64,000 nt of DNA from the NCBI GenBank assembly GCA_018814045.1, contig JAHJAR010000060.1, forward strand, positions 1 through 64,000, in the 5' to 3' direction. Shown here one piece after another: positions 5,943-63,838 of the stretch. The DNA comes from Planctomycetota bacterium. Lineage in GTDB: Bacteria; Planctomycetota; Phycisphaerae; UBA1845; Fen-1342. Made by a program: the position numbers and the translations under genes. Position 1 is the first letter of the stretch. Each line of letters starts with the position of its first letter. The notes beneath the pieces are model-generated. The model made no database searches. It saw nothing but the letters and a program-made list of their open reading frames with translations, and had not been told where the DNA came from.

Positions 5943-6125
5943 CTAATTCAAGGAAGCATTTGTCGGATTTTGCACGGACTGGAGAGCCATCTGAACTGAG
6001 GCGAAACGCCAGCGGCAAGAAGGTGGCGGGCACAGCCCGCTCTACCCAGGTGTTGTTTCAAGGGGCCAGCGCGCACGGCCCACCCTACGCTACGGCTCTA
6101 CCCTCGGATGACCGTCACGATGCAC

Positions 6126-6155
6126 GGTAAACCCTCGCTCGCGCTTTGGGCTCGG
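6126..6155 (-). repeat. REP-like repeat, left of transposase
   Basis: This is a copy of the GAGCCCGAAGCGCAAGCGAG repeat in minus orientation, with one mismatch in the core. It lies 8 bp before the transposase reading frame and is inverted relative to the copy at 6734. The 5914-6125 stretch otherwise holds no gene. Confidence 0.65.
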
Positions 6156-6162
6156 CTATTCG

Positions 6163-6694
6163 GTGCCGGGCGTTTGTCTGGCAGCCGGAGGACTTTGCAC
6201 TGTCCGCAAGCCTGAGCCCAAGGGACACCTTTTGACCTGGACCTGCTACGGAACGTGGCTGCACGGCGACCAGCGAGGTGCGGTCGACGACAGCCACAAC
6301 GCACCCGGATCGGCGTTCCTACCGCCGGATTGTACGCGGCTGCTCCACGAGGTTCGGACGATGGCACACCGTCCGGTGAGAGCTAACGACTGCCGGCCGA
6401 CACCTCGTGCGCAAGGCAATCTCCCGGCACTGCGACATTCGCGAATGGACGCTTCACGCGGCGAACGTGCGCACGAATCACGTGCACGTCGTCGTGTCAT
6501 GCGACGTGCACCCGAGACAGGCGCTGGATCAATTCAAGGCGTGGTGTACACGGCGGCTGCGCGAGGCGGGCCACTTCGCCGCGGACCAGCCGGTGTGGAC
6601 AGCAGGCGGCAGCCGGCGTTGGCTGTGGGACAGCGACAGCCTGCGGCGTGCGATCGACTACGTCAGCGAGTACCAAGGTAACGACTTGCGTTGA
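6163..6694 (+). pseudogene. REP-associated tyrosine transposase (Y1/IS200-like), frameshifted
   Basis: The first frame reads LLTWTCYGTWLHGDQRGAVD and MAHRPV, and from about 6385 the next frame reads AISRHCDIREWTLHAANVRTNHVHVVV to AIDYVSEYQGNDLR. Joined, they give one RAYT-type protein: the HVHVVV strand carries the HUH histidines and the tyrosine near YVSEYQ is the likely nucleophile. An extra base (or loss of two) near 6381-6390 separates the frames, so no full transposase is made. The start codon is uncertain; the family opening begins near KGHLLTWTCYG at about 6220. Inverted copies of the same repeat flank the gene, as expected for this class. Confidence 0.75.
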
Positions 6695-6733
6695 CGGCCG
6701 GTCACCGCGTGAAACGCCGCCACCGCGCAAACC

Positions 6734-6758
6734 GAGCCCGAAGCGCAAGCAAGGGTTT
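6734..6758 (+). repeat. REP-like repeat, right of transposase
   Basis: This copy reads GAGCCCGAAGCGCAAGCA in plus orientation, 40 bp after the transposase stop. It pairs with the inverted copy at 6126 so that the two bracket the gene. Confidence 0.7.
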
Positions 6759-6821
6759 CGCGCCCGATTCACGCCGGCCGCCGGCAGCCTCAAACAACCT
6801 TTGAACGGAGACCCCCGATCC

Positions 6822-6845
6822 GAGCCCGAAGCGCAAGCGAGGGTT
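6822..6845 (+). repeat. REP-like repeat, third copy
   Basis: GAGCCCGAAGCGCAAGCGAG in plus orientation, about 88 bp after the previous copy. Confidence 0.7.
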
Positions 6846-6958
6846 CCGCACCCGGCCTGAAACACGCCCTCGGCATCCCGCTATCGCTGGCAAATGCCAA
6901 GGCAGTCTTCCACGATGACGGCCCCCGTCGAGAACGCCAGCACCCTCGACGACGGACG

Positions 6959-6990
6959 GTAAACCCTCGCTTGCGCTTCGGGCTCGGTTT
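6959..6990 (-). repeat. REP-like repeat, fourth copy
   Basis: The minus-orientation copy (plus strand CCCTCGCTTGCGCTTCGGGC) is inverted relative to the copy at 6822, giving a paired arrangement. No gene was found between 6695 and 7154. Confidence 0.7.
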
Positions 6991-63810: not shown

Positions 63811-63838
63811 ACCCGCTCGCTTGCGCTTGGGGCTCGGG
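63811..63838 (-). repeat. REP-like repeat copy near the right edge
   Basis: CCCGCTCGCTTGCGCTTGGG on the plus strand is a diverged copy of the repeat that brackets the transposase at 6.1-6.7 kb. No gene was found between 63774 and 64000. Confidence 0.55.

Follow-up and report, generated by a model that had tools for sequence, protein, structure and literature searches.

The 64-kb stretch of DNA analysed here (the window) contained five matches to the repeat GAGCCCGAAGCGCAAGC, against 0.05 expected in shuffled sequences, and all but one of them lie around a broken transposase gene. Upstream of the gene, a minus-strand copy spans 6130–6155 (core 6137–6153, two mismatches to GAGCCCGAAGCGCAAGC), and the first copy downstream of it spans 6732–6766 on the plus strand (core 6734–6750, exact), and these two, at 6137 (−) and 6734 (+), are inverted relative to each other across the gene. 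Two more copies follow at 6820–6845 on the plus strand (core 6822–6838, exact) and 6962–6987 on the minus strand (core 6969–6985, exact), which form the arms of an inverted pair and are perfect reverse complements over 26 nt (100%). A 90% match over 39 nt was also found between 6117–6155 and 6949–6987, and a lone variant with one mismatch, GAGCCCCAAGCGCAAGC, is present elsewhere in the window (63819–63835, minus strand). The sequence-only reading of this DNA had described the repeat as lying inverted on either side of a Y1 transposase with two more paired copies downstream, and both parts of that description were borne out.

The transposase is encoded on the plus strand in two overlapping pieces. 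The N-terminal part was read in frame 1 (LLTWTCYGTWLHGD..., 6229–6387) and covers positions 1–53 of the family profile with 73.8 bits, while the C-terminal part was read in frame 2 (6359–6691, stop codon 6692–6694) and covers profile positions 44–154 with 154.7 bits (match 6359–6688). Together with a TGA in the second frame at 6377–6379, this two-frame match places the frameshift within about 6359–6387, and the position near 6385 given earlier was off by no more than about 25 bases. The HUH motif NHVH is read at 6476–6487 and the catalytic tyrosine motif YVSEYQ, of the form Y----Q, at 6659–6676, both on the plus strand; the two histidines of the former (H.H), and Y144 and Q149 of the latter, are invariant in alignment A1. 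The Pfam domain PF01797 (Y1_Tnp) matched only the second half of the gene, with 23.4 bits. The frameshift itself could be a single-base assembly error, the source being a metagenome-assembled genome (MAG) of 365 contigs; the M..PLAY start region that is usual in relatives is missing as well, so the gene has decayed at more than one point. We put the probability at about 85% that 6229–6691 is a decayed Y1 (HUH) transposase of the class-3 type with its own REPs on both sides.

Class 3 of the TnpAY1 enzymes was described as a small, planctomycete-rich group with atypical flanking hairpins bearing a CnGA foot, on the basis of 10–24 members whose hairpins were identified by hand (Quentin 2018, PMC6006769); its authors stated that the behaviour of the class needs experiment, and no class-3 biochemistry was found in the literature. 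The window gene appears to fit this class, an assignment based on the published motifs. NHVH is present, the W[TA] motif appears as VWTA in the window protein, with the W invariant in A1, and the window repeat copies read CCGAG, in agreement with the CnGA foot. The window YVSEYQ keeps the spacing of the published YV[VI][AENY]EQ, and its inner residues deviate. The GT[AG]G foot of class 2 was not the rule, GTAG being found in 4 of the 111 class-3 flank hairpins described below, and the NCBIfam model REP_Tyr_transpos (NF047646) gave the window gene 25.1 bits, under its cut-off of 80. The structure model of a close relative (L039, pLDDT 84.7) had 4er8, a complex of TnpAREP with a REP hairpin, as its best PDB match, and the sequence profile resembles the IS200-type structures 2f4f and 2ec2.

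The family profile is 155 aa long. Relatives were detected in 52 of 114 genomes of the order by search and in 52 of 392 genomes of the phylum by profile search, and a scan of public genomes yielded 80 named loci, mostly in Phycisphaerae and other Planctomycetota, also in Acidobacteria and in a few others. Only one free-standing class-3 copy was found in the window's own genome. For the comparisons below, class-3 genes were gathered by protein similarity alone (about 190 domains) and their flanks were tested afterwards. One class-3 gene, L194 of genome G498, is flanked by an inverted repeat of ∼440 bp, unlike the other loci.

In the source genome, GAGCCCGAAGCGCAAGC with at most one mismatch had 35 copies, versus 1 for the reversed control. 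Eight inverted pairs occur in this list, spaced 58–59 nt start to start and always plus then minus, where 0.02 neighbours closer than 100 bp were expected by chance; allowing up to four mismatches gave three further inverted pairs of 58–59 nt. Most copies of this genome sit in such pairs, and most are far from any transposase. The pairs are thus REPIN-like, namely dispersed, with the feet outward, the hairpins inward and a fixed spacing, whereas the downstream neighbours in the window are spaced 88 and 147 nt. Pair spacings of 74 and 58 nt were determined in another genome (G016). In an empty-site comparison of the sister species G009 and G025, 7 of 20 sites shared the REP in both, and the sites taken further stopped at the ends of contigs, which break at the repeats. 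A small cluster of a related repeat, GGCCCCGCATCAGAACCGGAAGCGTCAGCGCCCGGCCC, adjoins a REPIN of the source genome (L027, G000:C203:12125-12388) and resembles the REP of another class-3 type, ATCAGAACCGGAAGCGTCAGCG. In addition, a weak Y1_Tnp remnant (L037, G000:C332:20817-20945) lies 500 bp from the REPIN at C332:20303-20361; it is unmatched by the class-3 profile and is perhaps a second decayed RAYT (REP-associated tyrosine transposase) of this genome.

By comparing the 400-bp flanks on the two sides of each gene for an inverted repeat (score at least 18), we detected one at 82 of 118 class-3 loci, versus 0 of 118 shuffled flanks, 3 of 118 cross-genome flank pairs and 0 of 148 random window sites. 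Inverted repeats were present beside 19 of 21 other Y1 genes too, and were consequently rejected as class-3-specific evidence, so that specificity rests on the motif, the foot and the loop. The strict motif GAGCCNNNAGCGCNAGCG occurred 40 times in the 95 kb adjoining class-3 genes and 9 times in the 169 kb farther out. Among the other Y1 genes examined, none of the intact ones carried the strict motif nearby, and the one weak, degraded match was at L037. Other-Y1 flanks contained 12 GTAG-footed hairpins versus 1.5 expected. Such GTAG-footed REPs (e.g. GTAGCCCAGCGTGAAACGCTGGG) were seen at other Y1 genes of the same genomes (L032, L033, L114, L118, L121 and others), and several REP systems, each with its own enzyme and foot, coexist in one genome.

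Whether a genome has the repeat and the gene proved uninformative as a test, in that 59 of 61 genomes have some Y1_Tnp gene and high-copy genomes without a class-3 gene exist, and position and phylogeny were therefore used instead. The window-type REP was present at 33 of 184 class-3 loci. When its presence is mapped on a tree of these domains, 17 changes are required, compared with a mean of 30.8 for shuffled labels, and none of 500 shuffles gave as few. The window gene's five closest relatives belong to other genera and families, and each of them carries a variant of the window motif. In genome G008, GAGCCGCGAGCGC flanks the class-3 gene and is also dominant among the genome-wide copies listed. 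Judged from these sequence comparisons, GAGCCCGAAGCGCAAGC is the REP of the window transposase's subclade and not of the whole family. The earlier proposal that this widespread motif is the REP of the transposase family therefore holds in that a REP-type transposase is flanked by its own REP and its relatives carry variants of it, but is too broad in extending it beyond the subclade. Both situations that had been named as counting against the proposal occur when taken literally, i.e. related RAYT loci lacking the repeat (other class-3 genes have different hairpins, and ordinary RAYTs have GTAG) and, with respect to class 3, an abundant repeat lacking its gene: G004 has 398 copies of a degenerate motif and no class-3 gene found even by profile. 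G002, G009, G019 and G025 similarly have 16–53 motif copies and no clear class-3 gene. The compared genomes are mostly MAGs and incomplete, and the repeat can persist, perhaps spread, in genomes with no resident class-3 gene, or else the gene lies in the missing sequence. The positional and phylogenetic link between repeat and transposase survives, and a one-to-one dependence does not.

The window copies can be written as CCGAG-CCC-GAA-GC-GCAA-GC-GA-GGG. Single-strand folding of the four copies around the gene was no better than that of shuffled sequences, because the window type is one base short in the canonical 3′ arm. The class-3 flanks were scanned for an AG foot, 8 nt, GNNA and 8 nt, with pairing not required, and at least 6 of 8 pairs were formed in 111 of 366 distinct flank sequences, versus 5 of 277 from the window and 7 of 204 from distant flanks. 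Hairpins with an AG foot and a GNNA loop were found in 87 of 237 flanks at 0–200 bp versus 5 of 227 at 600–800 bp, and in 3 of 312 window tiles and 2 of 41 other-Y1 flanks used as controls. Before GNNA was imposed, it was already, by a wide margin, the commonest tetraloop among the flank hairpins (189 of 576, both strands), equalled by its complement TNNC (189), with the next at 22. Among the 111 hairpins, the foot was CGAG in 38, AGAG in 31 and GGAG in 10; stem position 3 was C-G in 55 and G-C in 53, position 7 was G-C in 59, C-G in 40 and A-T in 11, and positions 5–6 were often G.A and A.G and elsewhere Watson-Crick. These counts point to a class-3 REP composed of an NGAG foot, a 4-bp stem, a tandem G.A or two pairs, a 2-bp stem and a GNNA loop, with strong compensatory change. 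The short GC stem with a GCAA loop suggested beforehand fits this family-level hairpin, with its GNNA loop, but the fold of the window copies alone is insignificant.

Many class-3 matches fell in very long open frames, and 42 distinct class-3 copies were located in frame within alanyl-, valyl- and leucyl-tRNA synthetases (AlaRS, ValRS, LeuRS), PurH, MutS and DNA methylases. That such in-frame copies exist is well supported, and they are the surprising part of the analysis. Inserts in alaS were found in 12 genomes (L199, L200, L201-L204, L206, L207, L308-L311) at two insertion sites, near profile positions 263 and 378, both of which split the AlaRS catalytic domain, and one genome had two inserts. 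In each of the 12 genomes checked, every PF01411 match falls in the insert-bearing frame and no separate alaS was detected. G011 has two RAYTs inside alaS with site 263 empty, and G058 has an insert at 263 with site 378 empty, so the orthologues serve as each other's empty site. ValRS had the inserts L198, L209-L211, L297, L299, L303, L241, L244, L250, L252, L253, L265, L266 and L274, and one insert each was found in LeuRS (L302) and MutS (L300). In several families, a divergent RAYT-like domain interrupts PurH at about the same place (L197 at G000:C11:20807-21283, L214, L215, L304-L307), with HUH and tyrosine kept in most. The break was at profile position about 133 in the source genome and in five more; as a caveat, a purH fragment was also present at a contig end of the source genome. 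Further inserts lie in DNA methylase or restriction-modification-like genes (Eco57I/DUF7008, MmeI-like, DUF1156; L208, L239, L262, L264, L298).

The inserts have REPs on their flanks. In those alaS and valS genes that were read nucleotide by nucleotide, the REPs of the unit were all in codon phase 1 for plus copies and all in phase 0 for minus copies, and are read as DREGA- and PLPHGRGSE-like peptides. A methionine just upstream was found for 4 of the 42 embedded copies versus 109 of 146 free ones, and almost all embedded copies kept a recognisable HUH motif and the tyrosine. On the tree, the embedded copies group in a few lineages; in at least one case, the sister of an AlaRS copy is a ValRS copy. 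A structure model of an AlaRS-RAYT fusion, made with six sequences, had a mean pLDDT of 59.5 and was discarded as too poor to place the insert. In the literature searched, no description of such in-frame insertions was found; PMC6006769 had set aside ‘unexpectedly long proteins’. We consider it somewhat more probable than not that class-3 REPtrons on repeated occasions became in-frame domains of essential enzymes and were kept, and that in several planctomycete lineages the only AlaRS detected (elsewhere ValRS, LeuRS, PurH or MutS) would be one polypeptide with an HUH transposase whose catalytic residues are retained, joined by translated REPs. The embedded copies could be either tolerated passengers or retained enzymes.

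The window locus is best read as a decayed class-3 REPtron, i.e. a single-copy, TnpAREP-like Y1 HUH transposase between its cognate REPs. The identity and decay of the gene, the flanking position and specificity of the repeat, the covarying family hairpin and the fixed pair spacing support this directly, and from the TnpAREP analogy and the conserved catalytic residues we infer strand recognition, foot cleavage and movement in trans. An unbroken enzyme would recognise the REP in its folded single-stranded form, most likely while exposed on the template for the lagging strand; cleavage and rejoining beside the foot would use the tyrosine of Y----Q, with NHVH as the metal site. REPs would be mobilised in trans, mainly as inverted pairs, the REPINs with feet outward and 58 nt apart. 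With the enzyme broken here, the roughly 35 dispersed copies may be remnants, or may depend on a source elsewhere.

An ordinary IS200/IS605 insertion sequence with the repeats as its ends could account for the Y1_Tnp domain, the class-1-like Y----Q and the profile resemblance to 2f4f and 2ec2. The ends of IS200/IS605 elements are two different hairpins and not inverted copies. Here the flanks are inverted copies of one repeat, and a whole element with two unlike ends and several copies was not found; the copies are many per genome and mostly far from any transposase, the genome has one free-standing class-3 copy, and the best fold match is TnpAREP, which leaves this explanation very improbable. 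Nearly as improbable is an origin from an unrelated DDE transposase, of which the motif would be a terminal-inverted-repeat MITE, with RAYTs nearby through shared intergenic hot spots. The paired inverted copies do resemble a MITE of about 85–90 bp, and the motif is abundant in genomes without class-3 genes, but it adjoins class-3 genes and not the other Y1 genes of the same genomes, its variants track the RAYT tree, its enrichment is gone at 600–800 bp, and within coding sequences, too, the gene is flanked by hairpins that fit the model.

That the repeats are RNA-level or chromosome-structure elements under selection (terminators, nucleoid or gyrase sites), with a historical link only to the transposase, was judged unlikely, being a reading that leaves the fixed-spacing pairs, the tracking of the RAYT phylogeny and the hairpins in coding sequence unexplained. 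It would suit the persistence of the repeats without the gene, as in the 398 copies of G004, and such roles have been assigned to REPs elsewhere (PMC3733652). A role of this kind is compatible with the REPtron explanation and does not exclude it.

With these results, a short repeat that is widespread in these planctomycete genomes is linked to one particular class of enzymes, and class 3 gains a DNA substrate (foot, stem and loop) that can be tested. The embedded copies matter more than the window locus: since simple disruption can hardly remove an element that sits within the sole AlaRS gene, the persistence of REP transposases without insertion-sequence behaviour becomes directly testable. 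If this reading of the embedded copies is true, a mobile element could in this way become inseparable from its host, and such copies may be an active source moving REPs in trans.

Compared with known systems, the window locus is a decayed addition to a known, little-studied class. It shares with class-3 TnpAY1 (PMC6006769) the planctomycete and acidobacterial taxonomy, NHVH, W[TA], Y----Q, the extended N-terminal conservation (about 155 aa), the CnGA-foot hairpins and the high copy number in the genome, and differs in that the window copy is broken; added here are a general hairpin model (GNNA, tandem G.A), REPIN pairing, subclade-specific REPs and in-frame copies in housekeeping genes. Like E. 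coli TnpAREP and its REP (4er8), the nearest solved fold, it is an HUH-Y1 enzyme flanked by REPs that form an imperfect hairpin with a 5′ foot, whereas the foot is NGAG here and GTAG there, the motif is Y----Q here and the class-2 Y..NP there, and the hairpin here is short and GNNA-capped. The dispersed, RAYT-associated inverted REP doublets of fixed spacing are those of REPINs (Bertels and Rainey 2011, PMC3116915), with a different REP and RAYT class and a spacing of 58 nt. As with the in-frame REPs of subclass 2.4 tnpAREP (PMC6006769), a REP is tolerated in coding sequence with the frame unbroken, but what is carried in frame here is a complete REP-RAYT-REP unit, within unrelated essential enzymes.
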